From Antennarius striatus (lineage: Eukaryota > Chordata > Actinopteri > Lophiiformes > Antennariidae), in assembly GCF_040054535.1 (NCBI RefSeq), contig NC_090782.1:24975501-25039500 (forward strand): a DNA stretch of 64,000 nucleotides, given 5' to 3'. The position numbers and the translations under genes were made by a program. A model generated the notes under the pieces. The model saw only the letters and a list, made by a program, of their open reading frames with translations, was not told where the DNA came from and did not search any database. This document shows, one piece after another, positions 5,702 to 63,943 of this stretch. Position 1 is the first letter of the stretch. Each line of letters starts with the position of its first letter.

Positions 5702-7769
5702 CTCCTAACACAACAAGTCTGTTTTCCCCGGTTCTCTTGTCAAAGACAAACATTCCAGTCGTGGGACGCTCAATGCCAGGGTCCGTTTGATCTTCATCAT
5801 GTGACATCTGAGAGAGGCGGGAACCCCTGCTTATCATCAGGCCCCCCCAACACCGACCCGTACGGGGCCAGGTCTGAAGGCTCTGATGTGTCCCGCTGCG
5901 TGCATGTGTTCCGTCCCTGACCTGATATAACTCCGTCCCGTTGGACGATTCTGCCTCGCTGATCCGACAGCGCAGAAGGAAACGCACACCAGCCCCCCCG
6001 TCAGATTCCTTAACCCCCCCACGTCTCTCCATCTTTACATCAACGCACTAATTACAAAGACAATCCCATGATGCTCAGCAGCCAGCCAGCCATATCATGG
6101 CCCGACGTCCAGCTGGATGTGTGGGTCACATGACACAAAAATGTCCTGCCATGCAGCGTCCTATCAACGCCTCCGGGCCCCCGGGAGTCCACATTCCCTC
6201 ACAAGGACGCGGTTCATGTGAGGACAGCCTTATAGTGACGTACAGGAAGCATATGACCGCCGCCGAGGCGTTCAGAGGTGGGTAACGGCGGCGTGACCGG
6301 TGTGGCGAGTCCATGTCACAACAACCACACAAATCTTTATCTAGATTCACGTCGCAATCGCAACACAAAACTAAAGAAGAAGAAGGAAAGCCCTCCTCAT
6401 CATCGCTGTGGAGATTCCATCATCATAACAGACAAACGGGTCTGATGTAGATGTTTAGTCCTGATTGGAATCAATTCAAAGCACAAACACATGAGATGAA
6501 GCGTGTAAACTCCTGTTTACAGCCTGTGTTCCTGATGAAACCCTGAACATTAAGGGAGTTCCAGCCAAAAGTCCCGTCCTGTAGGACATGTGGTATTCAG
6601 CTGTATTTATAGGATGGATTAAATGTGGAATTCCTTCTCATGGAAGTTTTTCACCAGTGGGTCAGTGGAGTGTTCCATCTGATGGGACGTCACGCTGTCG
6701 GCCTGGAACAATGTGGGACAGAGGGTCAGACGGGGGGGTGTTTATGTCCTGAAAGTAGCTCCAAAGTGATGAATTTATTCGGGAATAATGACAGAATTTG
6801 CATGAATCCAGACGAGGGACAGAAACTCGTCCAATCAGAGTTCATCAAGAGGTAGGAGAAGGCTAATGCGGTTAGCTCAGAGGCTACTGAGGTGGGCTGG
6901 AACACCTGCTCAGGTAAAACCAGATGAGACCTCGTCTACAAACACACAATGATAAACTAGATCAAACAGAGGTGCATGCTTACACTGTTAGCTCACAGGC
7001 TACGACCGTCTGACCGATCGACTAACAGACCAACCGACCGACCGAAGTCAGACTGGCCATACGCTGACCAACAATTCAATAAAAAAATTTTTAGAACGAC
7101 CGAATGACCCAAAAAAAAAAAAGATTTTGGCCAAAACAAATATTCTGACTGGCTGACCCCCCCCAAAAAAATTTTTAGACTGACAAACTGAACAAAAAAA
7201 AATTATTCATTGGAACGACCAACCAAAACAAAAAATTTTTTTTGGAACGACCGAACGAAAAAAATTATTTAGACAAACCGACCAAAAAATATTTATTTTA
7301 CCAAAAAAACAAACAAATGTTTTTTGGACAGACTGACCAAATACAAACTAATTTTAACCCGACTGACCGGTCGAAAAAAAAAATTTTTGTCAGACCAACC
7401 CACATAAAAAATTTTTTTAGACCGACCAACTGAACAAAAATTTTTTTATTTTGAACAGACCGAACAAATAAAAACTTATTTTGACCCGACTCACCCATGG
7501 AAAAAAACATTTTTAGACCAACCAACCAACCAAAGAAAAACATTTTTTAAGACTGACCGACCTACAAAAAAAATTTTTTTGGACCAACTGACCAAAAAAA
7601 AAATTTTTTAAAAACGACCAACCGAAAAAAAATTATTTACACCGACTTACCAAACAAAATTTTTTTTAACCCGACCGACTGGTTGAAAGGAAAACATTTT
7701 TGACAGACCAAGTGAACAAAAAAAATTTTTTTTTGGACCGAACGACCTACAAAAAAAAACCGACCAAAA

Positions 7770-9809
7770 AAATTTATTTAAACCGACCAACCAAAAGAAA
7801 TTACAACTTTTTTTTTAACCAAAAACAAGAATGATTTTTGGACGGACCAACCAAATAAAAAAATATTTTAGCCCTACTCACAGGTTGAAAAAAGACCAAC
7901 CAACCGACCACAGAAAAACATTTTTTTTAGACTGACTGACCTACAAAAAAAAATTTGTTTGGACCAATGACCAAAAAAATTTTTTTGAAATGACCAACCG
8001 AAAAAAATTATCTACACCGACCGACTAAAAAAATAATATTTCTTTTTTATGAAAGAGAATGTTTTTTGGACGGACTGACCATATAAAAAAATATGTTTTA
8101 ACTGAACTCACAGGTTTTTTAGACCAACTGACCAAATAAAAAATTTTTTTTAACCCGACCGACAGGTCGAAAGAAACATTTTTTTGACCGACCAAGTGAA
8201 CAAAAAAAGTTTTTTGGAACGACCGACCTACAAAAAATTGTTTACTTAGACCAACCAACCAAATCAAAAATTTTTGGAACAACCGACCGAAAAAAATTAT
8301 TTAAACTGAGAAATTACTTTTTTTTTTTAACCAAAAACAATGATTTTTGGACGACCGACCAAATAAAAAATTATTTTAACCCCGACCGACTGGTCGAAAG
8401 GAAATTTTTTTTTGACAGACCAAGTGAACAAAAAAAATTTTTTTTGGACCGAACGACCTACAAAAAAAAACTTTACTTGAACCAACCAACCAAACAAAAT
8501 TTTTTGGAACGACCGACCAAATAAATGTATTTAAACTGACCGACTAAAAAAATAACATTTCTTTTTTACTAAATAGAATGTTTTGTCGACGGACTGACCA
8601 TATAAAAAAAATATTTTTTAACTGAACTCAGGAGCTTTTTTTAGTCCAAGTGACCAAAAAAAATTTTTTTGTAACCCGACCGACAGGTCTAAAGAAACAC
8701 TTTTTTGAACAAAAAAAAAGTTTTTTGGACCAACCGACCTACAAAATTTTTTTTGGAACAACCGACCGAAAAAAATTACAATTACGAAATTACTTCTTTT
8801 TTTTTTCCACCAAAAACAATGATATTTGGACGACTGACCAAATACAAAATTATTTTAAGCCAACTCAGAGGTCGAAAAACATCTTTTTAGACCAACCAAC
8901 TGACCAAAGAAAAACATTTTTTTAGACTGACTGACCTACAAAAAAACTTTTTTTGGACCAACTTACCAAAAAAATTTTTGAAACGACCAACCGAAAAAAA
9001 TTATTTACACCGACCGACTAAAAAAATAATATTTCTTTTTTATGAAATAGAATGTTTTTTGGACGGACTGACCATATAAAAAAATATTTTTTAACTGAAC
9101 TCACAGGTTTTTTTAGACCGACTGACGAAAAAAACATTTTTTTAACCTGACCGACTGGTCGAAAGGAAAATTTTTTTGACAGACCAAGTGAACAAAAAAA
9201 ATTTTTTTTGGACCGAATGACCTACAAAAAAAAACCTATTTGAACCAACCAACCACACAAAATTTTTTGGAACAACTGACCAAAAAAAATTATTTAAACT
9301 GACCAACAAAGAGAAATTACAATTTTTTTTAACCAAAAACAAGAATGATTTTTGGACAGACCGACCAAATAAATTATTTTATCCCTACTCACAGGTTGAA
9401 AAAACATTTTTTTAGACCAACTAACCGACCGAAGAAAAACATTTTTTTAGACTGACCGACCTACAAAAAATTTTTTTTGTGGACCAACTGACCAAAAAAA
9501 TTTTTTTGAAATGACCAACCGAAAAAAATTATCTACACCGACCGACTAAAAAAATTATATTTCTTTTTTATGAAATAGAATGTTTTTTGGACGGACTGAC
9601 CATATAAAAAATATTTTTTAACTGAACTCACAGGTTTTTTTAGACCAACTGACCAAAATAAATTTTTTTGTAACCCGACCGACTGGTCGAAAGAAACACT
9701 TTTTTGACAGACCAAGTGAAAAAAAGAAATTTTATTTGGACCGAATGACCTACAAAAAAACCCTACTTGAACCAACCACACAAAGTTTTTTGGAACAACT
9801 GACCAAAAA
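7770..9809 (+). repeat. 2.04-kb higher-order repeat unit, copy A
   Basis: This unit holds four monomers of about 519, 474, 528 and 519 bp, judged from the spacing of the ggacggactgacc anchors. Most of it reappears almost unchanged 2039-2041 bp downstream; compare 8041-8700 with 10081-10740. The edges are approximate because the monomers grade into each other. Confidence 0.8.
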
Positions 9810-11850
9810 AATTTATTTAAACCGACCAACCAAAAGAAATTACAACTTTTTTTTTAACCAAAAACAAGAATGATTTTTGGACGGACCAACCAAATAAAAA
9901 AATATTTTAGCCCTACTCACAGGTTGAAAAAAGACCAACCAACCGACCACAGAATAACATTTTTTTTAGACTGACTGACCTACAAAAAAAAAATTTGTTT
10001 GGACCAATGACCAAAAAAATTTTTTTGAAATGACCAACCGAAAAAAATTATCTACACCGACCGAATAAAAAAATAATATTTCTTTTTTATGAAAGAGAAT
10101 GTTTTTTGGACGGACTGACCATATAAAAAAATATGTTTTAACTGAACTCACAGGTTTTTTAGACCAACTGACCAAATAAAAAAAATTTTTTAACCCGACC
10201 GACAGGTCGAAAGAAACATTTTTTTGACCGACCAAGTGAACAAAAAAAGTTTTTTGGAACGACCGACCTACAAAAAATTGTTTACTTAGACCAACCAACC
10301 AAATCAAAAATTTTTGGAACAACCGACCGAAAAAAATTATTTAAACTGAGAAATTACTTTTTTTTTTTAACCAAAAACAATGATTTTTGGACGACCGACC
10401 AAATAAAAAATTATTTTAACCCCGACCGACTGGTCGAAAGGAAATTTTTTTTTGACAGACCAAGTGAACAAAAAAAATTTTTTTTGGACCGAACGACCTA
10501 CAAAAAAAAACTTTACTTGAACCAACCAACCAAACAAAATTTTTTGGAACGACCGACCAAATAAATGTATTTAAACTGACCGACTAAAAAAATAACATTT
10601 CTTTTTTACTAAATAGAATGTTTTGTCGACGGACTGACCATATAAAAAAAATATTTTTTAACTGAACTCAGGAGCTTTTTTTAGTCCAAGTGACCAAAAA
10701 AAATTTTTTTGTAACCCGACCGACAGGTCGAAAGAAACACTTTTTTGAACAAAAAAAAAGTTTTTTGGACCAACCGACCTACAAAAATTTTTTTGGAACA
10801 ACCGACCGAAAAAAATTACAATTACGAAATTACTTCTTTTTTTTTCCACCAAAAACAATGATATTTGGACGACTGACCAAATACAAAATTATTTTAAGCC
10901 AACTCAGAGGTCGAAAAACATCTTTTTAGACCAACCAACTGACCAAAGAAAAACATTTTTTTAGACTGACTGACCTACAAAAAAACTTTTTTTGGACCAA
11001 CTTACCAAAAAAATTTTTGAAACGACCAACCGAAAAAAATTATTTACACCGACCGACTAAAAAAATAATATTTCTTTTTTATGAAATAGAATGTTTTTTG
11101 GACGGACTGACCATATAAAAAAATATTTTTTAACTGAACTCACAGGTTTTTTTAGACCGACTGACGAAAAAAACATTTTTTTAACCTGACCGACTGGTCG
11201 AAAGGAAAATTTTTTTGACAGACCAAGTGAACAAAAAAAATTTTTTTTGGACCGAATGACCTACAAAAAAAAACTATTTGAACCAACCAACCACACAAAA
11301 TTTTTTGGAACAACTGACCAAAGAAAATTATTTAAACTGACCAACAAAGAGAAATTACAATTTTTTTTAACCAAAAACAAGAATGATTTTTGGACAGACC
11401 GACCAAATAAAAAATTATTTTATCCCTGCTCACAGGTTGAAAAAACATTTTTTTAGACCAACCAACCGACCGAAGAAAAACATTTTTTTAGACTGACCAA
11501 CCTACAAAAAATTTTTTTTGTGGACCAACTGACCAAAAAAATTTTTTTGAAATGACCAACCGAAAAAAATTATCTACACCGACCGACTAAAAAAATTATA
11601 TTTCTTTTTTATGAAATAGAATGTTTTTTGGACGGACTGACCATATAAAAAATATTTTTTAACTGAACTCACAGGTTTTTTTAGACCAACTGACCAAAAT
11701 AAATTTTTTTGTAACCCGACCGACTGGTCGAAAGAAACACTTTTTTGACAGACCAAGTGAAAAAAAGAAATTTTATTTGGACCGAATGACCTACAAAAAA
11801 ACCCTACTTGAACCAACCACAGAAAGTTTTTTGGAACAACTGACCAAAAA
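9810..11850 (+). repeat. 2.04-kb higher-order repeat unit, copy B
   Basis: This is the near-identical successor of copy A. The anchor spacing series 519, 519, 473, 530 repeats that of copy A. Differences are mostly one-base changes in homopolymer length. Such high identity points to a recent tandem duplication or gene-conversion event, or to an assembly duplication. Confidence 0.8.
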
Positions 11851-13210
11851 AAATAATTTAAACTGACCAACAAAAAGAAATTACAATTTTTTTTTTAACC
11901 AAAAACAAGAATGATCTTTGGACAGACCGACCAAATAAAAAATTATTTTATCCCTACTCACAGGTCGAAAAAACATTTTTTAGACCAACCAACCGACCAC
12001 AGAAAAACATTTCTTTAGACTGACCGACCTACAAAATAAATTTTTTGTGGACCAACTGACCAAAAAAATTTTTTTGAAACGACCAACCGAAAAAAATGAT
12101 CTACACCGACCGACTAAAAAAATAATATTTCTTGTTTACTAAATAGAATGTTTTTTGGACGGACTGACCATATAAAAAAATATGTTTTAACTGAACTCAC
12201 AGGTTGTTTAGACCAACTGACCAAATAAAAAAATTTTTTTAACCCGACCGACAGGTCGAAAGAAACATTTTTTTGACCGACCAAGTGAACAAAAAAAGTT
12301 TTTGGAACGACCGAACTACAAAAAATTGTTTACTTAGACCAACCAACCAAATCAAAAATTTTTGGAACAACTGACCGAAAAAAATTATTTAAACTGAGAA
12401 ATTACTTTTTTTTTTTAACCAAAAACAATGATTTTTGGACGACCGACCAAATAAAAAATTATTTTAACCCCGACCGACTGGTCGAAAGGAAAAATTTTTT
12501 TGACAGACCAAGTGAACAAAAAAAATTTTTTTTGGACCGAACGACCTACAAAAAAAAACTTTACTTGAACCAACCAACCAAACAAAATTTTTTGGAACGA
12601 CCGATCAAAAAAATTTATTTAAACTGACCGACTAAAACAATAACATTTCTTTTTTACTAAATAGAATGTTTTTTGGACGGACTGACCATATAAAAAAAAT
12701 ATTTTTTAACTGAACTCACAGCTTTTTTTAGTCCAAGTGACCAAAAAAAATTTTTTTGTAACCCGACCGACAGGTCGAAAAAAACACTTTTTTGACCGAC
12801 CAAGTGAACAAAAAAAAAGTTTTTTGGACCAACCGACCTACAAAAAATTTTTACTTGGACCAACCAACCAAAATAAAATTTTTGGAACAACCAACCGAAA
12901 AAAATTACAATTACGAAATTACAATTTTTTTTTTTCACCAAAAACAATGATATTTGGACGACTGACCAAATGCAAAATTATTTTAAGCCAACTAAGAGGT
13001 CGAAAAACATCTTTTTAGACCAACCAACTGACCAAAGAAAAAATTTTTTTTAGACTGAGCGACTTCACAAAAAAAATTTCTTTTGGACCAACTGACCAAA
13101 AAAAATTTTTTGAAACGACCAACCAAAAAAATGTATTTACACTGACTGACCAAAATTTTTTTTATTTTTTTAACAAATAGAATGTTTTTTGGACAGACTG
13201 ACCATATAAA
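11851..13210 (+). repeat. higher-order repeat unit, partial and diverged copy C
   Basis: This copy follows the same monomer order with anchors at 12157, 12675 and 13191, but with more substitutions and indels than A versus B. It fades out before the strand-switch zone. The last clear block similarity to copy B is around 12.4-12.9 kb. Confidence 0.65.
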
Positions 13211-13860
13211 AAAATATTTTTTAACTGGACTCGAAGGTTTTCTTTAGACCGACCGACCAAAAAATATTTTTTTTAACCGACCGACTGGTCAAAAGGAACA
13301 TTTTTTGAGAGACCAAGTGAACAAAAAAAAAATTTTTTTTGACCGAACGACCTACAAAAAAAAACTTTACTTGAACCAACCAACCAAACAAAATTTTTTG
13401 GAACAACCGACCAAAAAGAATTATTTAAACTGACCGACAAAAAATATCATTTCTTTTTTACTAAATAGAATGTTTTTTGGATTTTTTTTAACCCGACCGA
13501 CAGGTCGAAAGAAACACTTTTTTGACCAACCAAGTGAACAAAAAAAAAGTTTTTTGGACTGACCGACCTACAAAAAATTTTTTACTTGGACTAACCAACC
13601 AAAAAAAAAATTTTTGGAACAACCGACCGAAAAAAATTATTTAAACCGAGAAATTACAATTTGTTTTTTTTTAACAAAAACAAAAAGGATTTTTGGACGA
13701 CCGACTAAATAAAAATTATTTTGACCCAACTCACGGGTCGATAAGAAATTTTTTAGACCAACCAACCGACCAAAGAAAAACATTTTTATAGACTGACCAA
13801 CTGACCGGAAAAATTTTTTTTAGAACAACCAACAAACCCCCCAAAAAGAGTTTTTGGACT

Positions 13861-14286
13861 GATGGATGGAAAAATGTTTATAGACCAACCGATCATTTGA
13901 AAAACAACCGAAAAAAAAAAATGCACAAAAATTTTTTTTCGGTCAGGTTGTTCAAAAAATTTTTATTACCAAAAAAGATTTTTTGGAGACCGACCGAAGA
14001 AAACATTTATTTCTTAGACCAACCGGAAAAAATGTTAAAACGTCCGACCGACTAACCCCAAAAAATATTTTAGACAATCGGTCCAAAAATATTTTATTAG
14101 AGTAACCGACTGACTGACCAAAATAAAAAAATTTATAGACAAGCCTTCTGAAAATTTTTTAGTTTAGAATGACAAAAAAAAAAAAATTCATGAAATAAAT
14201 TTTTTTTGACCATAGTTCTGTCTAAAAACTTTTTTTATTACCATTCTAAAAAAAATTTTTATGGACCTAAAAAAATAGGTTTTTTT
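13861..14286. repeat. strand-switch zone of the array
   Basis: The orientation of the tetranucleotide cores changes from GACC-type to GGTC-type within about 430 bp. The first GGTC-type unit, CGGTCAGGTTGTTC, is near 13940. GACC-type units persist until about 14120, and only GGTC-type cores dominate after 14287. The zone also contains cores that are degenerate or absent, for example 14150-14270. No gene, origin motif or target-site duplication is recognisable here. Confidence 0.75.
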
Positions 14287-16799
14287 GGTCGGTTGGTTTG
14301 TCCAACTTAATTTTTTTGACAAGTTGGTCGGAGTGAAAAAAATTATTTTGGTCTCAAAAAAACATTTTTTCGGGAGAAAAAGGTTTGTTTTTGGTTGGTG
14401 GGTCATGCTCGATGGGTTCGGTTTGTCCAAAAAAAAAAGTTTTTCTAGAAAGGTTGGTCGGTCAAAGAAATAAATTTTTTTTTCAACCACTATAAAATTA
14501 TTTTTTTTGGGTCGGTCGGTCTAAAAAATGTTTTTTTTCAGGTAGTTGCTCTAAAAAAACTTATTTTGACTGTTCTGTATTAAAAAGTTTTTTGGGTCGG
14601 TCAGTCCAGAAAAAAAAATTCTCGGTCAGTTGGTCCAGAAAATTTTATTTTGAAAGGTTGGTCAGTCACAAAAACTTTTTTTTTCAACCACTCAGTTGGT
14701 CTAAAAGATTTTTTTTTTGTAAGTCGGTCAGCCAGCTGGTTGCTCTAAAAAATACTGTTTTTGGTCAAAAAAAATGTTTTTTTCAACTGGTTGATTGATT
14801 AAAAAAGTTTTTTTTTTCACCTGGGCAGTCGCTCTTAAAAAATATTTTTATCTGACTAGTTGTTCTAAAAAAATTTTCTGGTTAGTTGGTCTAAAAAATT
14901 TTTTTCGACCAGTCAGTTGGGTTAAAATAATTTTTTACTAGGTCGGTCCGTCCAAAAAACTTTTGTTTTTGTTAAAAAAACAAATTAAAAAAAAACTTTT
15001 TTCCTCTTTTGGTCAAAATTTTTTTGTTCGGTCAGTTGGTTGGTTGCTCTACAAGTTTTTTTGGGACCAGTCTGGTTAAAAAATTTTTTTGGGTTGGTCG
15101 TTCCAAAACAACTTTGGTCGAACAAACAAAAATTTTTTTCGTCTAAAAATTTCATTTTTTTGTTGGTTGGTCTCAAGAAATCTTTTTTTGGTAATGAAAA
15201 ATGTTTTTAGACCAAACTATCGACCAAAAAGACAATTTGTTTTGATAAAAAAATTTTCAGACGTTCTTGAAAAAAAAATTTTTTTTACCAGTTGGTCGGT
15301 CTGAAAAAATTTTTTTTCGGTAGGTCCAAAAAATTTTTTTTTGGTAGTTCGGTACAAAAACTTTTTTGGGGGGGTGGGTCAGTGAAAAACATTTTTTTCG
15401 GTTGTTCAGTTGGTAAGAACATTTTTTTTTCAGTCAGTCGGTCTGTTGTTCTAAAAAAACTTTTTTTCACCGGTCTGTATAAAAAATTTTTGTAGGTTGG
15501 TCGGTCAAAAAAATGTTTTTTTTGACTGGGTGGACACTATAAAACATATGTTTTTTGGACTAGTTGTTCTAAACATTTTTTTGGGTCGGTCGGTTGGTCG
15601 TTCTAAAAAATTTTTTCCAGTCAGTCAGTTGCTCTATAAAAATATCTTTTTGACTGGTCTATGTAAAATTTATTTTGTAGGTCGGTTGGTCCAAAAAACA
15701 ATTTTTTTAGGATGGTTATTCAGTCAAAAATTTCTTCGTCGGTCGGTCCGAAAGATAATTTTTCAGCTGGGCAGTCACTTTCAACATTTTTTTAATCTAA
15801 CCGGTTGGTCTAAAATTTTTGTTTGGTTTGGTCGATATAAAATTTTATTTTTCAGTTGGTCAGTCCACATACATTTTTTGGTTGCTCAAAAAAAATTTTT
15901 TAGAACACTTAATTGGTCTAAAAAATGTTTTGGTTAGTTCTTCAAAATTCTATTTTTTCAATTTTTTTTATCGGTCAGTCCAAAAAAACTGGTCAAACAA
16001 ACAAATTTTTTTTTCGTCTAAAAATTTCGTTTTTTCGTTGGTCGGTGTCAAAAAATCTTTTTTTGGTAATGAAAAATATTTTTAGACCAAACTATCGAAC
16101 AAAAAGACAATTTGTCTTCATAAATGTTTTTTCGGACGTTGTTGAAAAAAAATTTTTTTCAGCCGGGCGGTCACTCTAAAAAAGTTTTTTTTTTACCGGT
16201 TGGTCGGTCTGAAATTTTGTATCGGTAGGTCCAAAAAATTTTATTTTGGTTGTTCAGTATAAAAACTTTTTTGGGGGGGTGGGTCAGTCAAAAACATTTT
16301 TTTCTGTTGTTCAGTTGGTAAGAAAACATTTTTTTTCAGTCGGTCAGTCTGTTGTTCTAAAAAAATTTTTTGACAAAATTTTTTTGGGTTGGTCAGTCGT
16401 TCTAAAAAATTTTTTCCAGCCGGTCAGTAGCTCTATAAAAATATATTTTTGACAGATCTGTGTAAAATTTATTTTGTAGGTCGGTTGGGCCAAAAAAAAA
16501 TTTTTTTGTAGGTTGGTTGGTCCAAAAAAATAATTTTTTTAGGATGGTTATTCAGTCAAAAAAATTTTCGACGGTCGGTCCAAAAGATAATTTTTCAGCC
16601 GGGCAGTCACTTTCAATATTTTTTTAATCTAACCGGTTGGTCTAAAATTTTTGTTTGGTTTGGTCGATATAAAATTTTGTTTTTCAGTCGGTCAGTCCAC
16701 AAACATTTTTTGGTTGCTCAAAAAAAAATTTTAGACCACTTAATTGGTCTAAAAAAATTTTGGTTAGTTCTTCAAAATTCTATTTTTTCAATTTTTTTT

Positions 16800-17746
16800 A
16801 TCGGTCGGTCCAAAAAAACTGGTCGAACAAACAAAATATTTTTTTTCGTCTAAAAATTTCGTTTTTTTGTTGGTCGGTGTCAAAACATCTTTTTTTGGTA
16901 ATGAAAAATATTTTTAGACCAAACTATCGAAAAAAAAGACAATTTGTCTTCATAAATGTTTTTTCGGACGTTGTTGAAAAAAAATTTTTTTTCAGCCGGG
17001 CGGTCGCTCTAAAGAAGTTTTCTTTTTACCGGTTGGTCGGTCTGAAAATTTTCTACGGTAGGTCCAAAAATTTTTTTTTTGGTCATTCGGTATAAAAACT
17101 TTTTTAGGGGGGTGGGTCAGTGAAAAACATTTTTTTCTGTTGATCAGTTGGTAAGAAAAATTTTTTTTTCAGTCGGTCGGTCTGTTGTATAAAAATTTTT
17201 TTGACCGGTCTTTATAAAAAAACTTTTGTAGGTCGGTCAGTCAAATATTTTTTTTTTGGACAGGTTGTTCTAAAAAAATTTTTTTGGGTCGGTCGTTCTA
17301 AAAAAATTTTTCCAGTCGGTCAGTCGCTCTATAAAAATATCTTTTTGACAGATCTGTGTAAAATTTATTTTGTAGGTCAGTTGGTCCAAAAAAACTTTTA
17401 TTTTAGGATGGTTATTTGGTCAAAAAATTTTCGACGGTCTGTCCAAAATATTTTTTTCAGCTGGGCAGTCACTTTAAATATTTTTTAATCTAACCAGTTG
17501 GTCTAAAAAATTTTTTGAGGTTGGTGGATATAAATTTTTCGGTCGGTCAGTCCACAAACACTTTTTGTTTGGTCAAAAAAACATTTTTTCGACCGCTTAG
17601 TTGTTCTAAAAAATGTAATTTTTTGGTCAGTTATTCAAAATTCTATTTTTTCAGTCAGCCAGTTGGTTGCTCTAAAAAATTTTTTTGGGACCAGTCTAGT
17701 TAAAAAATTTCTTTGGGTAGGTCAGTACAACGAAAAATTTTTTTAT
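16800..17746 (-). repeat. ~946-bp right-arm monomer, copy 1 of a near-identical pair
   Basis: The segment starting at TCGGTCGGTCCAAAAAAACT (16801) is repeated at 17748 with only a handful of differences. A third start lies at 18694. Reading frames in the two copies are offset by 945 bp and nearly identical, which marks a recently homogenised part of the right arm. Confidence 0.8.
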
Positions 17747-18693
17747 CGGTCGGTCCAAAAAAACTGGTCGAACAAACAAAATATTTTTTTTCGTCTAAAA
17801 ATTTCGTTTTTTTGTTGGTCGGTGTCAAAAAATCTTTTTTTGGTAATGAAAAATATTTTTAGACCAAACTATCGAAAAAAAAGACAATTTGTCTTCATAA
17901 ATGTTTTTTCGGACGTTGTTGAAAAAAAATTTTTTTTCAGCCGGGCGGTCGCTCTAAAGAAGTTTTCTTTCTACCGGTTGGTCGGTCTGAAAATTTTCTA
18001 CGGTAGGTCCAAAAATTTTTTTTTTGGTCATTCGGTATAAAAACTTTTTTAGGGGGGTGGGTCAGTGAAAAACATTTTTTTCTGTTGATCAGTTGGTAAG
18101 AAAAATTTTTTTTTCAGTCGGTCGGTCTGTTGTATAAAAATTTTTTTGACCGGTCTTTACAAAAAAACTTTTGTAGGTCGGTCAGTCAAATATTTTTTTT
18201 TTGGACAGGTTGTTCTAAAAAAATTTTTTTGGGTCGGTCGTTCTAAAAAAATTTTTCCAGTCGGTCAGTCGCTCTATAAAAATATCTTTTTGACAGATCT
18301 GTGTAAAATTTATTTTGTAGGTCGGTTGGTCCAAAAAAACTTTTATTTTAGGATGGTTATTTGGTCAAAAAATTTTCGACGGTCTGTCCAAAAGATTTTT
18401 TTTTCAGCTGGGCAGTCACTTTAAATATTTTTTAATCTAACCAGTTGGTCTAAAAAATTTTTTGAGGTTGGTGGATATAAATTTTTCGGTCGGTCAGTCC
18501 ACAAACACTTTTTGTTTGGTCAAAAAAACATTTTTTCGACCGCTTAGATGTTCTAAAAAATGTAATTTTTTGGTCAGTTATTCAAAATTCTATTTTTTCA
18601 GTCAGCCAGTTGGTTGCTCTAAAAAATTTTTTTGGGACCAGTCTAGTTAAAAAATTTCTTTGGGTAGGTCAGTACAACGAAATTTTTTTTTAT
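17747..18693 (-). repeat. ~947-bp right-arm monomer, copy 2 of a near-identical pair
   Basis: This directly follows copy 1 and matches it across nearly its whole length. The differences I noticed are single bases, for example tttata versus tttaca near 17212/18157. Confidence 0.8.
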
Positions 18694-21600
18694 CGGTCGG
18701 TCCAAAAAAACTGGTCGAACAAACAAAATATTTTTTTTCGTCTAAAAATTTCGTTTTTTTGTTGGTCAGTGTCAAAAAATCTTTTTTTGGTAATGAAAAA
18801 TGTTTTTAGACCAAACTATGGATCAAAAAGACAATTTGTCTTGATAAATGTTTTTTCGGACGTTCTTGAAAAAAAATTTTTTTTCAGCCAGGTGGTCGCT
18901 CTAAAAAAGTTTTTTTTTTCACCGGTTGGTCGGTCTGAAAGTTTTTTTTTCGATAGGTCCAAAAAAATTTTTTTGTGGTCGTTCGGTATAAAAACTTTTT
19001 TTGGGGGGTCGGTCAGTGAAAAAAATTTTTTTCTGTTGTTCAGTTGGTAAGAAAAAATTTTTTTTCAGTCGGTCAGTCTGTTCTAAAAAATTTTTTTGAC
19101 CGGTCTGTATAAAAAGTTTTTTGCAGGTCGGTTGGTGAAAAAAAATTTTTTTTCCGACTGGGCGGTCACTATAAAACATATATTTTTTGGACTGGTTGTT
19201 CTAAAAAAAATTTTTGGGTCGGTTGGTCGGTCGGTCGTTTTAAAAAAAAATTTTTCCAGTCAGTCAGTCGCTCTATAAAAATATCTCTTTGACTGGTCTG
19301 TGTAAAATTTATTTGGTAGGTCGCTTGGTCCAAAAAAAATTTTTTTGTAGGTTGATCGGTCCAAAAAACTTTTTTTTAAAGATTGGTTATTCGGTCAAAA
19401 AAATTTTCGTCGGTCAGTCCAAAAGATATTTTTTTCAGCTGGGCAGTCACTTTAAATATTTTTTAATCTAACCGGTTGGTCTAAAAATTTTTGGGGGGGT
19501 TGGTCGATATAAATTTTTTTTTTCGGTCGGTCAGTCCACAAACATTTTTTGGTTGGTCAAAAAAAATTTTTTTCGACCGCTTAGTTGGTCTAAAAAATGT
19601 AATTTTTTGGTCATTTCTTCAAAATTCTATTTTTTCAGTCAGTCGGTTGGTTGCTCTAAAAAATTTTTTGGGACCAGTTTCTGGTTAAAAAAATGTTTTG
19701 GGTAGGTCAGTCCAACAAAAAAAATTTTTATCAGTCGGTCGGTCCAAAAAAACTCGAACAAACAAAAATGTTTTTTTGTCTAAAAATTTAATGTTTTTGT
19801 TGATTGGTCTCAAAAAATCTTTTTTTGGTAATGAAAAATGTTTTTACTCCAAACTATCGAGCAAAAAGACAATTTGTTTTGATAATTTTTTTTCGGACGT
19901 TCTTGAAAAAAAAATTTTCACCTCAGTCTGTCCAAAAAAAAATTTTTTTCAGGTGGGCGATCGCTCTAAAAAATTTTTTTTTTTTTACCGGTTGGTCGGT
20001 CTGAAAAATTTTTTTTCTCGGTAGGTCCAAAAACATTTTTTTTGGTCAGTCGGGGTCGGTCAGTGAAAAAGTTTTTTTTTGGTTGTTCAGTTGGTAAGAA
20101 AGTTTTTTTCTCAGTCGGTTGGTCTGTTGTTCTAAAAAACTTTTTTTCACCGGTCTGTATAAAAAATTTTTTGTAGGTCAATCGGTCAAATTTTTTTTTT
20201 TTTCGAATGGGCGATCACTTATAAAACATGTTTTTTTTTGGACTGGTTGTTCTAAAAAATTTTTTGGGGTCGGGGGGGCAGTCGTTCTAAGAAATTTTTT
20301 CCAGTCAGTCAGTCGCTCTATAAAAATATCTTTTTGACTGGTCTGTGTAAAATTTATTTTGTAGGTCGGTTGGTTCAAAAAAAATTTTTTTTGTAGGTTG
20401 ATTGGTCCAAAAAAACTTTTATTGTAGGATGGTTATTCGGTCAAAAACATTTTTTGACGGTCGGTCCAAAAGATTTTTTTTTCAGCCGGGCAGTCACTTT
20501 AAATATTTTTTAATCTAACCGGTTGGTCTAAAGATTTTTTGGGGGTTGGTCAATATAAATTTTTGTTTTTTCGGTCGGTCAGTCCACAAACATTTTTTTG
20601 GTTGGTTAAAAAAAAATAATTTCCAACCGCTTAGTTGGTCTAAAAAATGTAATGTTTTGGTCAGTTCCTCAAAATTCAATTTTTTCAGTCAGTCGGTTGG
20701 TTGCTCTAAAAAAATTTTTTGGGAAAAGTCTGGTTAAAATTTTCTTTGGGTAGGTCAGTCCAACGAAAAAATTTTTTATCGGTCAGTCCAAACAAACTGG
20801 TCGAAAAAACAAATTTTTTTTTTTTCGTCTAAAAATTTCGTTTTTTTGTTGGTCGGTGTCAAAAAATCATTTTTTAGTAATGAAAAATGTTTTTAGACCA
20901 AACTATGGACCAAAAAGACAATTTGTCTTGATAAATGTTTTTTCGGAAGTTCTTGAAAAAAAAATTTTTTTCAGCCGGGCGGTCTCTCTAAAAAAGTTTT
21001 TTTTTTTACCCGTTGGTCGGTCTGAAAAAATTTTTTCGGTTGGTCCAAAGAAATTTTTTTTTCTGTTGTTCAGTTGATAAGAAAATTGTTTTCTCAGTCG
21101 GTTGGTCTGTTGTTCTAAAAAAACTTTTTTTCACAGGTCTGTATAAAAAATTTTTTTTGGGTCGGCCGGTCAAATAAAAATTTTTTTCGACTCGGCGGTC
21201 AATAGAAAACATATTTTTTTGGACTGGTTGTTCTAAAAAAATTTTTTGGGTCGGTCGGTTGGTCGGTCGCTTTAAAAAATTTTTTCCAGTCAGTCAGTCG
21301 CTCTATAAAAATATCTTTTTGACTGGTCTGTGTAAAATTTATTTTGTAGGTCGGTTGGTCCAAAAAATTTTTTTTTTGTAGGTTGATTGGTCCAAAAAAA
21401 ACTTTATTTTAGGATGGTTATTCGGTCAAAAAAATTTACGTCGGTCGGTCCCAAAGATATTTTTTTCAGCCAGGCAGTCACTTTAAACATTTGTTTAATC
21501 AAACCGGTTGATCTAAAAATGTTCTTTTGGGTTGGTTGATATAAAAAAAAATTTTCCGGTAGGTCCAAAAAATTTTTTTTCAGTCGGTCAGTATAAAAAC

Positions 21601-23406
21601 TTTTTTCGGGGGGCCAGTCAGTGAAAAAAATTGTTTCTCTGTTGTTCAGTTGGTAAGAAAAATTTTTTCTCAGTCGGTCGCTCTGTTGTTCTAAAAAAAC
21701 TTTTTTTGACCGGTTTGTATAAAAAGTTTTTTGTAGGTAGGTCGGTCAAATACATATTTTTTTTTGGAATGGGCGGTCACTATAAAACATATTTGGTTTT
21801 GGACTGGTTGTTCTAAAACATTTTTTTGGGTCAGTTGAACGGTCATTCTAAAAAAATTTTTCCAGTCGGTCAGTCGCTCTATAAAAATATCTTTTTGACC
21901 GGTCTGTCTAAAATTTATTTTGTAGGTCGGTTGGTCCAAAAAAACCTTTATTTTAAGGATGGTTATTCGGTCAAAAAAATTTTCAACGGTCGGTCCAAAA
22001 GATATTTTTTTCAGCCGGGCAGTCACTTTAAATATTTTTTAATCTAACCGGTTGGTCTAAAAATTTTTGGGGGGTTGGTCGATATAAAAAATTTTTTCAG
22101 TCAGTCAGTCCACAAACATTTTTTGGTTGGTCAAAAAAAATTTTTTTCAACCGCTTAGTTGGTCTAAAAAATGTAATTTTTTGGTCAGTTCCTCAAAATT
22201 CTATTTTTTCAGTCAGTCGGTTGGTTGCTCTAAAAAATTTTTTTGGGACCCAGTGTGGTTAAAAAATTTTTTGGGTAGGTCAGTCCAACAAAAAAATTTT
22301 TTATCAGTCGGTCGGTTCAAAAAAACTGGTCGAACAAACAAAATTTTTATTTAGTCTAAAAATTTCATTTTTTTTGTTGATCGGTCTCAAAAAATCTTTT
22401 TTTGGTAATGAAAAATGTTTTTAGACCAAACTATCGACCAAAAATACAATTGGTTTTGCTAATTTTTTTTCCGGACATTCTTGAAAAAAAGTTTTTCACG
22501 TCGCTCGGTCCAAGAAAAAATTGTTTTCAGCTGTGCGGTCGCTCTAAAAATGTTTTTTTTTTACCGGTTGGTCGGTCTGAAATTTTTTTTTTTCTGTAAG
22601 TCCAAAAAAATTTTTTTGGGTCGGTCGGTATAAAACTGTTTTGGGGGGGTCAGTCAGTGAAAAAAAATTTTTTTCAGTTGTTCAATTGGTAAGAAAATTT
22701 TTTTTTCAGTTGGTCGGTCAAATATTTTTTTTTTCGACTGGGCGGTCACTTTAAAACATATTTGTTTTGGAGTGGTTGTTCTAAAAAAATTTTTTTGGTC
22801 AGTCGGTCGGTCGGTTGTTTTAAAAAATTTTTACCAGTCGGTCAATTGCTGTATAAAAATATCTTTTTCACTGGTCTGTGTCAAATTTATTTTGTAGGTC
22901 AGTTGGTCCAAAAAACTTTTTTTTTAGGATGGTTATTCGGTCAAAAAATTTTTCGTCGGTCGGTCCAAAACATATTCTTTTAGCCGGGCAGTCACTTTAA
23001 ACATTTTTTAAATCTAACTGGTTGGTTTAAAAAAAAATTTTGTTTTCGGTCAGTCAGTCCAAACAAATTTTTTGGTTGGTTGAAAAAAATTTTTTTCAAC
23101 CGCTAAGTTGGTCTAAAAAATGTAATTCTTTGGTCAGTTCTTCAAAATTCTATTTTTTCAGCCAAGCGGTTGCTCTAAAAAATTTTTTTGGAGTGATTGG
23201 TGTAAAAAAAATTTTTGGTCGGCCGGTCAGTCGAAATATTTTCTTTGTCGGTTTAAAAAAATTTTTTTTTGGTTAGTCAGTCTGAAGAAAGTTTTTTTTC
23301 GATTGGTCGGATGCAGGTCCAGGTCAGTTGGATGCAGGTCCAGGCCGGTCGGTCGGTCGGTCGATCCCCTGCTCTAAATAACCACACAACTATCTACTTA
23401 ATCTAA

Positions 23407-23872
23407 CGCCCCGTCCACACGATGACGGATTTTTTAAAAAACGCAACTTTTTAAAAACGCATCGAAAACGATTCGCGTCCACACAACATTGTTTACAAAA
23501 AAATCTCTGTCCACACGTAAACGCAGCAGTGCGTTTTCGAAGACGGCTATAAGCATGCCAAACCATGTGGTGGCAGTATTGAGTCAAATTTTATCCAATA
23601 GGACACCTCATTGTTTTCACAACACACGGGCCCATAAATATGACGTCACAGAGGTTTTCGTCGCAGGCAAGACGTCAGCGTTTTTTAGAAGTTGCGGATT
23701 CACCGTCCACACGACAACGCAGACCCAGTGTTTTTAAAAAAATCCACCTCGGCCAGCATTTTTAAAAAGTTGCGTTTTCGGTCCGGGTATCTGCGTTGTT
23801 GTGTGGACGGAAGGCGTAAACGCAACAAAAAAGTTGCGTTTTCAAAAAATCCGTTATCGTGTGAACGGGGCC
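23407..23872. mobile_element. MITE-like non-autonomous DNA transposon, ~466 bp
   Basis: The left end at 23407-23435 and the reverse complement of the right end at 23844-23872 agree at about 26 of 29 positions, with the shared core CACACGAT.ACGGATTTTTT. The similarity continues inward as ACGCAACTTTTT. The interior repeats GTCCACACG words and holds no transposase. The style resembles abundant fish hAT-type non-autonomous elements, but the superfamily is not proven. Flanking 8-bp target-site duplications are not clean (taatctaa versus taagacaa). The element lies 30 bp beyond the end of the satellite array. Confidence 0.7.
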
Positions 23873-23945
23873 TAAGACAACTGTTACCGTTAGTTACTGT
23901 TGGTGACGTCACCTTGCACCGCCAGATGATCGTGTCATCATCAGT

Positions 23946-23987
<42 letters not shown>

Positions 23988-23999
23988 TTCATCATCTTC
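23946..23999 (+). repeat. (CAT)n microsatellite
   Basis: A trinucleotide CAT array of about 54 bp with a few CTT interruptions at its right end. Confidence 0.9.
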
Positions 24000-24669
24000 A
24001 CACAGCAGCTCACATTAAAGCCTCATTTATTTTCTGGACGTCACGTGACCGACCGTTAACCCGGTTGACCGATGATGCAATCCGATCACGTTGTTGCGCG
24101 AACCGGAAGTCAGTTGCATCAGAAAAGTGACTCAGAGCAGAGAAAAATGAACGCGGTCCGGGGGACCAATCAAAGCGCAGCGCGTCTCTGTCCGTGTCAG
24201 CGGGGGTGGAGTGGGGGGGGGGGGCACCGGGACCACATGGCCGGTCTGGGACACCAAACGCTTGACGTTAAACTGTGAAAACGCGTCTGTGGTCATGTCC
24301 AGGCTGGGCTCTATTACTGCCCCAGGAAACGGGGTAATTACTGCTGGACACCTCCCAGACCGAACCCACGCGCTCCCGCCGTGACCTTGATTTGTGCAGC
24401 TATTTGTGAAAAGTTGGAGTTACGGTCCCTCAGATGTTACCTCCCATTCCGCGGGGGCGGGGTGTGCGCGCGGCGTGGGCGCGCGTAATGTGCGCTCAAT
24501 ATTACCCCCCCCCTAAACTTTAGTAAAAAGAGCGCAAACTGCCGTCACCGGTCACGGGGGGGTGGGGGGAGAGAGTTGCATCAGTGTGAGAAAAGGGGGG
24601 GTTGTTGTTGGTGGTGGGGGGGGTCAGCGCCTCAAACATCAAACACCGGTGGCGTCACTCCTCGCCGGT

Positions 24670-24708
24670 ACGTGCGAGCACGCCCGTTCCAAAATAAATA
24701 TTGACGTG
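24670..24708 (+). promoter_or_regulatory. candidate hypoxia-response and forkhead-like motif cluster
   Basis: ACGTG occurs at 24670-24674 and 24704-24708, and CACGC (GCGTG on the other strand) at 24679-24683. Between them lies the forkhead-like AAATAAATA at about 24692-24700. The vertebrate igfbp1 gene is known to be induced by hypoxia through HIF and repressed by insulin through FOXO. The motifs are short, so this remains a positional suggestion, about 130-170 bp ahead of the TATA box. Confidence 0.35.
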
Positions 24709-24750
24709 AATGTTGTATTCAAATGAGCCGCCTGACCGGACGCACGCCGG

Positions 24751-24755
24751 CCAAT
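24751..24755 (+). promoter_or_regulatory. igfbp1: CCAAT box of igfbp1
   Basis: CCAATCAGAG is a good NF-Y type CCAAT box, about 80 bp upstream of the TATA box, a typical distance for a vertebrate promoter. Confidence 0.5.
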
Positions 24756-24834
24756 CAGAGCGCGTCGTATCATCACACCTTCTTTTCAGAAATCATTCAT
24801 AACCGATGCGTCAAACACTCGCGGAGAACCCGGC

Positions 24835-24840
24835 TATAAA
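24835..24840 (+). promoter_or_regulatory. igfbp1: TATA box of igfbp1
   Basis: TATAAA sits in the context GGCTATAAAAACGG, 178 bp ahead of the start codon. Transcription would then begin near 24865, giving a 5' leader of about 150 nt with no upstream ATG. Strong TATA boxes are usual for igfbp1 promoters. Confidence 0.75.
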
Positions 24841-24913
24841 AACGGCTGCGCGCAACGCGCAGTTAGACATCCTCCAAAAAATCAAAGGAAAGACTTAACT
24901 GAGCAGGAACCGG

Positions 24914-25012: not shown

Positions 25013-26564
<1,552 letters not shown>

Positions 26565-30759: not shown

Positions 30760-39473
<8,714 letters not shown>

Positions 39474-50600: not shown

Positions 50601-51956
50601 CCACAAATTAGACTTTTAATTTTTGAATCTTGTTCATTTGAGGAATTTTAAAGCAGCAAGTCGTTTCATTGCTTGAAATTGGTTTTGGTTAGTGGAACGT
50701 TTAAATACAAGACTAGAATTAATTTCTCTCAGTTTGAGGCTCCAATTCTTCCAGTTTAAAGCTCCAGTTTGTGGCTCCAATTCTCCCCATTTGAAGCTCC
50801 AGTTCTCCCAGTTTGAGGCTCTGGGCTGTGATGAGATGATGCAACTCCACCGCGCTCTTACATCAGGCAGGACACCTACCTGATCTGGCCATGGAAGGGT
50901 TAACCCGCCTTAGCCTGCGTGCAGTAATGCACAGGTCATTAAACACGCGTTACCCCCCCACACACACCCCACCCACATCTCTCTGCAGCCCTTTTACTTT
51001 ATTTTAATACCCCTCCCCTCTGTGCTCTATGCTCCACCACCCCAACCTCTAACCTAAGTGGCAGGTGGGGGCATAAAATGTTGGGAGGTCCTCCGGCTCA
51101 GGACATCAAACGGATGCATCACGGGTGAGTCACCCCCCCGCCGTCTCCAGATTGCTGCCCTGCATCTTGACAGCAGAGCGGCTGATAAAACACTCGCCGG
51201 ATGGAGAGCGGGCCATGATTGGTCGCGGAGGAATGTAATCATTTTATTATGTTTCACTGCAGGGCCTCGGGACGCCGAGACCTCACCTCACACGCCATCC
51301 CATTCCAGTCGCTGTGTGTGTGTGTGTGTGTGTGCGTGTTCTGATTGTGGTGTGTGTCCAGATCGGTGCACACACATTCCTTCCATTTGTAACATCGGTG
51401 TGCTGCATGCATGAAAGCTTCTCCTCCGGGAGAAAAGAAAGATGTTTGTGGCGTTGGCCATCCTAACACGACCGGAGTGTTTCAAGTCTTTAGCTGCTAA
51501 TGTCGAGCCGGAGAAGAAGAGAAAGGTCCAGGTTCTGTAACCATAACGTCGGTGTATTTACACCGATTCAGGAGGTTGTTGTTTTTACCAGTCTTTTTGG
51601 GTCAGGAAAGATCTCACAGAAAAGCCAACAGAGTAGCAGTTAGCAGCGAACAGGTTTAAAGAAGAAAACTGAAGCCAAGACGGGGATGAAATCCGCCGTG
51701 GAACAGGAAATGTCACAGGAGAAGTCGATGTCGGGTGTGCCACTCCCTCTTTGCAACTCAAAAGTATGCATTTAAACCCCCACCGCCACAGGGAAACGGT
51801 CTGTTTCATTCAAATCTGTCAGAAACCTCTGGCCAGCCAGGTGAACAAGAAAACCATCATGGATCCATTGTTTATCAGGTTCTACTCCAAAGTCCGATGG
51901 TTCTTTTCCTTGAGTCTACCTCCTCCGATCCATCCAGTTCATGGTAGTCAAATTTC

Positions 51957-52214
51957 CAAAAGACTCAATGGTCAAAAAGACTCAACAATCCAAAAGACTC
52001 AATGGTCAAAAAGACTCAACAATCCAAAAGACTCAGTGGTCAAAAAGACTCAACAATCCAAAAGACTCAGTGGTCAAAAAGACTCAACAATCCAAAAGAC
52101 TCAATGGTCAAAAAGACTCAACAATCCAAAAGACTCAATGGTCAAAAAGACTCAACAATCCAAAAGACTCAATGGTCAAAAAGACTCAACAATCCAAAAG
52201 ACTCAGCAGTCAGA
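51957..52214 (+). repeat. 17/34-bp dimeric minisatellite
   Basis: Two 17-mers, AAAAGACTCAATGGTCA and AAAAGACTCAACAATCC, alternate to give a 34-bp unit present about 7.5 times. In the third and fourth copies CAATGG is CAGTGG. The array has no stop codon in any forward frame, which is why repetitive QKDSTIQKTQWSK-type frames span it. Confidence 0.95.
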
Positions 52215-63040: not shown

Positions 63041-63943
63041 TGTATATAATGTAATATTAATGTAAGAATTTGAAAGATTTTAAACGAAGGTTTCGATAAA
63101 AACTTTTATGAACTAGTTTATTAAATTATTTCTCCAAAAGATTTTGGTCACGTAAAAACACAACTAACTTCGGCATCTATTTTTGTATCAGATGGATAAA
63201 TAAAATCAGTAAAAAATATTTTAATTCAATAAGTTATTTAGGATTTCTTTGTTTTTGTTTAAAAAATAAAAGTAGATTTGACAGTGAATGTCCCAAAACA
63301 GGAAAGTTATTTCGTAAAAACAGAGCATTAAAGAAAAAGAAGAATAAAGAGAATTTAAGCCGTATAAATGTACCTCTGTTGGGCAGGATGAGTTTACAGG
63401 GCAGAGCCAGGGGGGTGATGGAGTGTTGACACACCAGAGCTGTGAGGCTTCCTGTCAACAAAACGAATACCATAATATTAATAATATTAGTAATAAAAAA
63501 ATAAAGGTAATATTTGTATTAATTTACAAAAAGCTCCTTGCAGCTTGGTATCCTGGCCGCTAGGGGGAAGCAAAGAGTCATGACACTGGCAGCCGATCCC
63601 ATAACAATCTCATTCGGGATTCTTAATGATTAACAACGGGCTCGGATTGGTGGAGATCATTGGCACTTAATCAACTAACTTCATCTTCATAACGAACACC
63701 TACAAAATCAGGCTTATTATAAGTTACCACGGCAACTACTTTACAGGAAGTCCTTGTTGTTGTCCACTTGGGTTCTTCTCAGCGTTCCTTTAAAACAAAC
63801 ACGATCACCATTTTTGCATCAACTCCAGACACGTCTTTGCGTCTCACCGAAGTACGGCTCGTTGGGACAACCCTTCAGACGGACGCCCTTCTGGGTGCAC
63901 TCGATCAGGAAGTGCCTCACCAGCTCATTGGCCAGATCCCCCG
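61935..63943 (-). CDS. tns3: tensin 3, C-terminal part (SH2 end and PTB domain), partial at right edge
   Basis: Seven exons on the minus strand are visible: 63943-63848, 63451-63374, 62820-62743, 62631-62463, 62384-62316, 62190-62161 and 62076-61935. All junctions are GT/AG with matching phases. The protein runs from the second half of an SH2 domain ([31 protein letters not shown]) through a short linker into a PTB domain ([66 protein letters not shown]), ending KVMIGSHKK. This pairing is unique to tensins, which link integrins to actin at focal adhesions. The family member is chosen by synteny, since TNS3 flanks IGFBP3 in mammals. The 5' part lies outside the window. Confidence 0.88.
62161..62190 (-). 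CDS. tns3: tns3 30-bp micro-exon
   Basis: Only 30 bp after CAACAG and before GTAAGT. It encodes WTRDSGSTA with split lysine codons on both sides. The phases match its neighbours, and the peptide fits the tensin PTB loop. Confidence 0.8.
62316..62384 (-). CDS. tns3: tns3 exon, PTB domain middle
   Basis: 69 bp after CTGCAG and before GTGAGT. It encodes [19 protein letters not shown]. Confidence 0.85.
62412..62453 (+). repeat. (GT)n microsatellite in a tns3 intron
   Basis: Read as (CA)n in the transcript, it begins ten bases after the donor GT of the exon at 62631-62463. Confidence 0.95.
62463..62631 (-). CDS. tns3: tns3 exon encoding the first half of the PTB domain
   Basis: 169 bp after GTGACAG and before GTGAGT. 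It encodes [16 protein letters not shown] through [14 protein letters not shown] (GT)n tract replaces the normal pyrimidine tract before it, and a (CA)n tract follows its donor. Confidence 0.88.
62636..62685 (+). repeat. (CA)n microsatellite at a tns3 acceptor
   Basis: Read as (GT)n in the transcript, it runs to within four bases of the 3' splice site of the exon at 62631-62463. Confidence 0.95.
62743..62820 (-). CDS. tns3: tns3 exon encoding the SH2-PTB linker
   Basis: 78 bp after GTTCAG and before GTGGGA. It encodes an acidic/serine-rich linker ending [10 protein letters not shown]. The intron upstream of it ends in a (GT)n tract on the transcribed strand. Confidence 0.85.
62825..62851 (+). 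repeat. (CA)n microsatellite at a tns3 acceptor
   Basis: Read as (GT)n in the transcript, it runs up to the TTCAG acceptor of the exon at 62820-62743. Confidence 0.95.
62998..63045. repeat. 48-bp perfect palindrome with (TA)n core
   Basis: ATACAG and CTGTAT bracket about 18 TA units, so the whole block equals its own reverse complement. It lies in a tns3 intron. Confidence 0.85.
63374..63451 (-). CDS. tns3: tns3 exon encoding SH2 end
   Basis: 78 bp after TTGACAG and before GTACAT. It encodes [20 protein letters not shown] and the start of the linker. Confidence 0.85.
63848..63943 (-). CDS. tns3: tns3 exon encoding SH2 segment
   Basis: 96 bp, phase 1 to phase 1, after CTGCAG and before GTGAGA. 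It encodes [11 protein letters not shown] through KGCPNEPYF, the middle to C-terminal part of the SH2 fold. Confidence 0.85.

Follow-up and report, generated by a model that had tools for sequence, protein, structure and literature searches.

The major satellite of the mouse is pericentromeric and forms megabase-sized arrays of a homogeneous 234-bp monomer, in which sub-repeats of about 28–30 bp with A-runs have been built up into larger units. A/T tracts that recur over kilobases near genes are also found in nematodes, in the periodic An/Tn clusters (PATCs), where they are phased at about 10 bp. Changes of direction within satellite arrays are on record as well. Directional switches are reported for 1.7% of mouse minor and 1.9% of mouse major satellites, inversions are mentioned in human HSATI arrays (PMC10880262), and inversions within alpha-satellite HOR units are described as few (PMC9859433). 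The macro-dyad satellite arrays of Tribolium consist mostly of two opposite sub-arrays, a few to tens of kb in size, with diverged monomers at the inversion sites and a potential for hairpin formation. The families involved are abundant, lie in megabase, putatively (peri)centromeric regions and have thousands of inversion sites with a similarity of 98–99%, and macro-dyad satellite arrays are reported to have been documented in Tribolium only (PMC13081366). Here we describe a two-armed tandem array in a 64-kb stretch of DNA from the fish Antennarius striatus (hereafter the window).

Layout of the array and relation between its arms

Positions 7004–23376 are occupied by a diverged tandem array of ~29–30 bp units, each composed of a run of RACY tetramers (GACC, AACC, GACT and AACT) and an A/T tract. 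The initial annotation had proposed a bipartite block with arms on opposite strands, and this two-armed array was confirmed as real: the + strand carries GACC in the arm to the left, and GGTC in the arm to the right, of a changeover at 13.9–14.3 kb. The array comprises the following parts:

7004–13920, + strand: left sub-array of ~29–30 bp units, (RACY)1–4 plus A/T tract, GACC-type, with higher-order periods of ~515 and ~2040 bp
13900–14290, no strand assigned: junction, a diverged zone of mixed orientation
14270–23376, − strand: right sub-array, the left arm's unit on the opposite strand (GGTC on +), with a higher-order period of ~945 bp in part

Counted per kilobase, GACC has a density of 30–38/kb at 7–14 kb as opposed to 1–6/kb at 14–24 kb, and GGTC reaches 21–34/kb at 14–23 kb and 1–4/kb at 7–14 kb, with 14/kb in the array's final kilobase, which partly falls outside the block. 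The GC skew ranges from −0.16 to −0.30 in the left arm (1000-bp windows starting at 7001–13001) and from +0.139 to +0.201 in the right arm (starting at 14501–22001), its sign being negative until ~13.9 kb and positive beyond ~14.3 kb. GC content is 0.29–0.33 in the block and ~0.37–0.67 in the windows beyond it, and the block edges, 7004 and 23376, proved correct to within tens of bases. The left arm is ~7.2 kb long and the right arm ~9.1 kb.

Within the unit, the RACY tetramers stand at 4-bp steps, one to four in a run in the left arm and one to five in the right, and the A/T tract follows the run. The suggested alternation of tetranucleotide cores with A/T tracts is borne out by the autocorrelation of these tracts, which peaks at 29, 57–58 and 87–88 bp in both arms alike, and by a pattern of a tetramer pair plus an A/T tract, which has 15 matches in the window (11 separate places, the others overlapping), all of them within the block, as against a mean of 0.00 in 100 dinucleotide shuffles. 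Among tracts with a length of at least 8, pure A-run-then-T-run tracts account for 52 of 188 in the left arm and 71 of 265 in the right, and pure T-run-then-A-run tracts number 13 and 10, respectively. The length of the whole unit gives no clear sign of 4-bp steps, its mod-4 classes holding 67/56/50/30 units in the left arm and 73/63/57/50 in the right. With its tandem head-to-tail units and higher-order repeats, no Pfam match in the three scanned of the six block ORFs of at least 110 aa, and neither an Rfam family at gathering score nor a tRNA within the window, the array appears to be non-coding satellite or minisatellite DNA.

The relation between the arms was examined by BLAST, with L defined as 7004–13920 and R as 14271–23376. 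Comparison of L with the reverse complement of R produced at least 300 matches (best score among those listed, 139 bits), whereas the direct comparison of L with R gave 14 (best, 41 bits), R reversed without complementing gave a single match of 41 bits, and of four Markov versions of the reverse complement of R, three gave 3 matches each (best, 46 bits) and one gave none. The excess over all these controls indicates that both arms hold one unit in opposite orientation. Shuffling the units of the reverse complement of R gave best scores of 196, 167, 141 and 123 bits in four trials, no lower than the 139 bits of the true order, so the arms share no detectable longer arrangement. On this result, a mirror-image inverted duplication was rejected, none being detectable. 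The initial annotation had spoken of a giant, loosely symmetrical inverted structure; one repeat family in opposite polarity is indeed present, but the shuffled controls and the difference in higher-order repeats lend no support to symmetry above the level of the unit.

Higher-order repeats, junction and core variants

The two arms have been built up in different ways. In self-alignments of the left arm, shifts of ~520, 1034 and 1532 bp gave 78–79% identity and a shift of ~2053 bp gave 89%, as compared to 67–69% for the shifts in between that yielded long alignments. Slices of 512 bp taken four apart were 92–100% alike in seven of nine pairs and 83% alike in the remaining two, the first and the last (gaps uncounted). 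In the right arm, shifts of ~932–958 bp gave 81–82%, alongside many other, less regular shifts, such that a single 945-bp period does not describe the arm (for example, 85% at a shift of 6246 over 685 columns). The most homogeneous parts are:

7762–12852, + strand: left arm, 7762–10793 recurring at 9801–12852 (shift 2039, 97.3% over 3058 alignment columns)
16793–19106, − strand: right arm, 16793–18156 recurring at 17738–19106 (shift 945, 97.0% over 1370 columns)

For 200-bp tiles, the best same-strand match within the block scores as high as 361 bits in the interior of the arms, as against only 36–55 bits in the three junction tiles (13804–14403), 65–76 bits in the three tiles that follow and 45 bits in the tile at the left end (7004–7203). 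The right outer end falls less than the left, with 211 bits in the last tile (23004), the tiling having excluded the final ~170 bp; opposite-strand scores are 48–124 bits throughout the block. Two arrays that homogenise apart from each other would be expected to show such a pattern of scores along with periods specific to each arm, with old edges at the junction and at the left end. The sub-arrays, opposite in polarity, thus appear to undergo homogenisation independently.

An isolated GGTC unit at ~13937, inside the left arm, makes the junction a mixed zone of ~350 bp. This zone also contains an imperfect 80-bp palindrome (13929–14008, 43.7 bits), but 3 of 55 tiles of 400 bp outscore it (44.6–50.0 bits), so this palindrome is unexceptional for the block and lends template switching no specific support. 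Arrays of this kind are difficult to assemble, no interior stretch is less similar than the junction and copies that are 97% alike exist, all of which would suit an assembly artefact, with separate arrays or haplotypes misjoined at 13.9–14.3 kb or the 2039-bp copies falsely duplicated. We consider such an artefact unlikely: the junction is made of the array's own unit in both orientations and has no run of N, and many copies differ by 8–20% or more, which long reads easily separate.

The variants of the core differ in a characteristic manner. The two-base step between AC cores is CG in 80 cases, CA in 85, TG in 61, TA in 3 and other in 73 in the left arm (n = 302), and CG in 92, CA in 80, TG in 68, TA in 4 and other in 61 in the right arm (n = 305); CG, CA and TG together make up 226/302 and 240/305. 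Were the two step positions independent, TA would be expected ~65 and ~59 times, respectively. Less redundant subsets agree (TA in 1/91 and 1/150; p = 0.002 and 3e-6), with p-values that are weakened by the non-independence of repeat copies. In alignments of six copy pairs, the rate of change at CG sites is about four times that at all remaining sites, e.g. 10/186 versus 38/2813. Counting a dinucleotide site whenever it is present in either copy, by one rule for all dinucleotides, transitions are most frequent at CG (56/513) among the 12 dinucleotides, followed by GC (6/86), with CA at 44/823 and AC at 16/1056. When all substitutions are considered, GC sites (13/86) change as often as CG sites (69/513), and CG stands out in transitions only. 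CpG observed/expected ratios are 1.35 and 1.29 in the arms, above the 0.81 and 0.66 of the flanks, indicating that many CpGs remain and that decay is far from complete. The best reading of GACC, AACC and GACT is that they represent a single ancestral (GACC)n tetramer and its CpG-transition products, and the mutation pattern, along with known mutation chemistry, suggests that the array is methylated in the germline.

The array is thus probably a locally grown minisatellite or satellite that underwent an early inversion near 14 kb, after which its arms were amplified separately and its core diversified mostly by CpG transition. Growth would have begun when a (GACC)n tetranucleotide core was joined to an A/T tract, giving the ~30-bp unit. 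Part of the array would then have been inverted early on, possibly by a template switch within a self-complementary AnTn tract. The left arm could afterwards have been amplified, by unequal exchange or by replication slippage, into ~515-bp and later ~2.04-kb higher-order repeats and, separately, the right arm into ~0.945-kb repeats in part of its length. Unequal crossing over is not productive between units that run in opposite directions, which would leave the junction and the outer end of the left arm old and diverged. The order proposed for these events is read from one sequence. Both the separate amplification of the arms and the change of skew could instead reflect growth dependent on fork direction, with an origin near 14 kb and a GACC unit that expands only when it is oriented one way with respect to the fork. 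The skew at replication origins changes from negative to positive, the sign that is seen at the junction. Nevertheless, the skew stops at the flanks and an inversion would still be required to yield both polarities, which makes fork-dependent growth very improbable. The layout of the block, unusual as it is, is consistent with the known rules of repeat evolution.

Neighbouring genes and predicted pairing of the arms

Two genes and a putative mobile element lie close to the array:

23407–23872, no strand assigned: MITE-like element of 466 bp, flanked by TAA at either end, its terminal inverted repeats aligning over 51 columns at 88%; separate from the array
25013–25390, + strand: IGF-binding protein exon-1 frame, called igfbp1 by position
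39054–39473, − strand: second IGFBP frame, starting at 39473

With starts at 25013 (+) and 39473 (−), the two IGFBP frames face each other. We take them to be igfbp1 and igfbp3 from the tail-to-tail arrangement of these genes; a PDB comparison of the frame at 25013 gives IGFBP4, 3 and 5 as its relatives, so the names rest on that arrangement. The end of the array at 23376 is followed by a TATA-like TATAAAA at ~24835 and by the exon-1 ATG at 25013, in agreement with the proposed location of the block ~1.5 kb upstream of igfbp1. The MITE-like element sits between the right end of the array and igfbp1, and its terminal inverted repeats and flanking TAA would fit a PIF/Harbinger-type element. Transposon ends bracketing the block were sought by comparing 6000–7040 with 23300–24900, which gave short matches only, the longest in the array's own motif.

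Elsewhere in the window, array stretch 15000–17000 has no match and stretch 7004–9050 has a single weak one, a 40-bp minus-strand match to the left arm at 63246–63285 (85%, E 1.7e-5), which is A/T-rich, has no tetramer run and probably reflects composition. A 34-bp minisatellite at 51955–52205 (7.4 copies, 99%) is built from a pair of ~17-bp halves that carry GACTCAA and A-runs, and has an array-like flavour; it is unmatched by either of those two array stretches. Another minisatellite, with a 22-bp unit in ~14 copies, lies at 33467–33780 between the two IGFBP frames.

The arms had been thought capable of forming long hairpins, and in predicted RNA folds they do pair with each other, in any register, more than pieces of the same arm. 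Joined 600+600-nt pieces of L and R (five random pairs) reached −316 to −349 kcal/mol with 243–286 cross-arm pairs, as compared to −193 to −202 kcal/mol and 53–82 cross pairs for L+L (n = 3), −286 to −307 kcal/mol and 30–148 for R+R (n = 3), and −216 to −255 kcal/mol and 135–210 for Markov versions (n = 3). The true junction (600+600 nt) gave −338 kcal/mol and 227 cross pairs, and a 1301-nt junction RNA −370 kcal/mol, a value without shuffled controls. These energies might be taken to mean that the array is a macro-dyad with a structural role, whose polarity is kept for long hairpins or cruciforms or for long double-stranded RNA, with special chromatin near igfbp1. Yet pairing is independent of register and of the true junction, which is how a by-product of polarity should behave, the Markov versions already retain much of the cross pairing, and three ordinary pieces of the window are as low or lower in energy (−323 to −433 kcal/mol), though with fewer cross pairs (38–110). 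Pairing is therefore a property of polarity and composition; as modelled, it is no evidence of a selected structure, and we regard the structural role as improbable. Slightly less probable still is a more elaborate version, a gene-side vertebrate macro-dyad with a single inversion, independently evolving arrays and a polarity maintained through long hairpins, which the arms would form on transcription or as single strands and which would impose methylation and silencing upstream of igfbp1. Local growth with an early inversion would require no sequence-specific function, and any putative effect of the array on igfbp1 would act through chromatin.

Other structural features were less pronounced. 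As DNA, one 600-nt strand of the left arm folds better than 100 of 100 shuffles (z = −4.03). Evidence for a cumulative bend from the AnTn tracts is weak. The coherence of A-tracts over 200 bp at 10.5 bp is 0.349 in L versus a null of 0.303 (sd 0.018) and 0.297 versus 0.299 in R; the best of six periods gives 0.369 at 10.7 in L and 0.390 at 10.0 in R, both of which exceed the null by little, fall at periods that differ between the arms and come from redundant copies. With phasing so weak and inconsistent, strong planar bending beyond single tracts is unsupported. A hairpin-driven co-variation of T-run and A-run lengths across the loop was rejected: the whole left arm, with its redundant copies, gave r = 0.22 (permutation p = 0.005), but the relation fails over the initial 2040 bp of that arm (r = 0.14, p = 0.20) and in the right arm (r = −0.04, p = 0.71), and nothing was found for run-length co-variation across the dyad. 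For two-tier G-quadruplex motifs, the left arm has 1.01/kb on its − strand (Markov, 0.20) and the right arm 0.44/kb on its + strand (Markov, 0.43), a control stretch has 1.24/kb, above both arms, and three-tier motifs are absent from the arms, so that G-quadruplexes were discarded as well.

Comparison with described repeats

A strict pattern of the unit had no match in the viral contigs of a non-fish collection, and a looser one matched genome contigs in 29 stretches and viral contigs in 6, likewise from non-fish collections, with one match each, which we read as chance. The repeat is unnamed in the titles and abstract openings that were found in the open-licence literature, which is no proof of its being unpublished.

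Compared by description, the array is like the mouse major satellite in the size of its sub-repeats, in its A-runs and, given the switches reported in PMC10880262, in its change of direction. With the PATCs it has in common recurring A/T tracts near genes, but its period is ~29 bp and its helical coherence is weak. In this one 16-kb sequence, repeat growth can be read side by side at three levels (4 bp, ~30 bp and ~0.5–2 kb), and the same array makes the effect of an orientation switch on homogenisation readable.

The nearest known architecture is that of the Tribolium macro-dyads, as described in PMC13081366. Like these, the array holds one repeat in two opposite sub-arrays, has diverged monomers at the inversion site and shows hairpin potential. 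Unlike them, it is a single 16-kb gene-side locus with very diverged units and with higher-order patterns that are unrelated between the arms. The resemblance to macro-dyad satellites is therefore one of layout, and it is known here from one array only, beside IGFBP genes. If long reads confirm it, a gene-side array of like layout in a fish would widen the range of macro-dyads beyond Tribolium, the only genus in which PMC13081366 reports them as documented.
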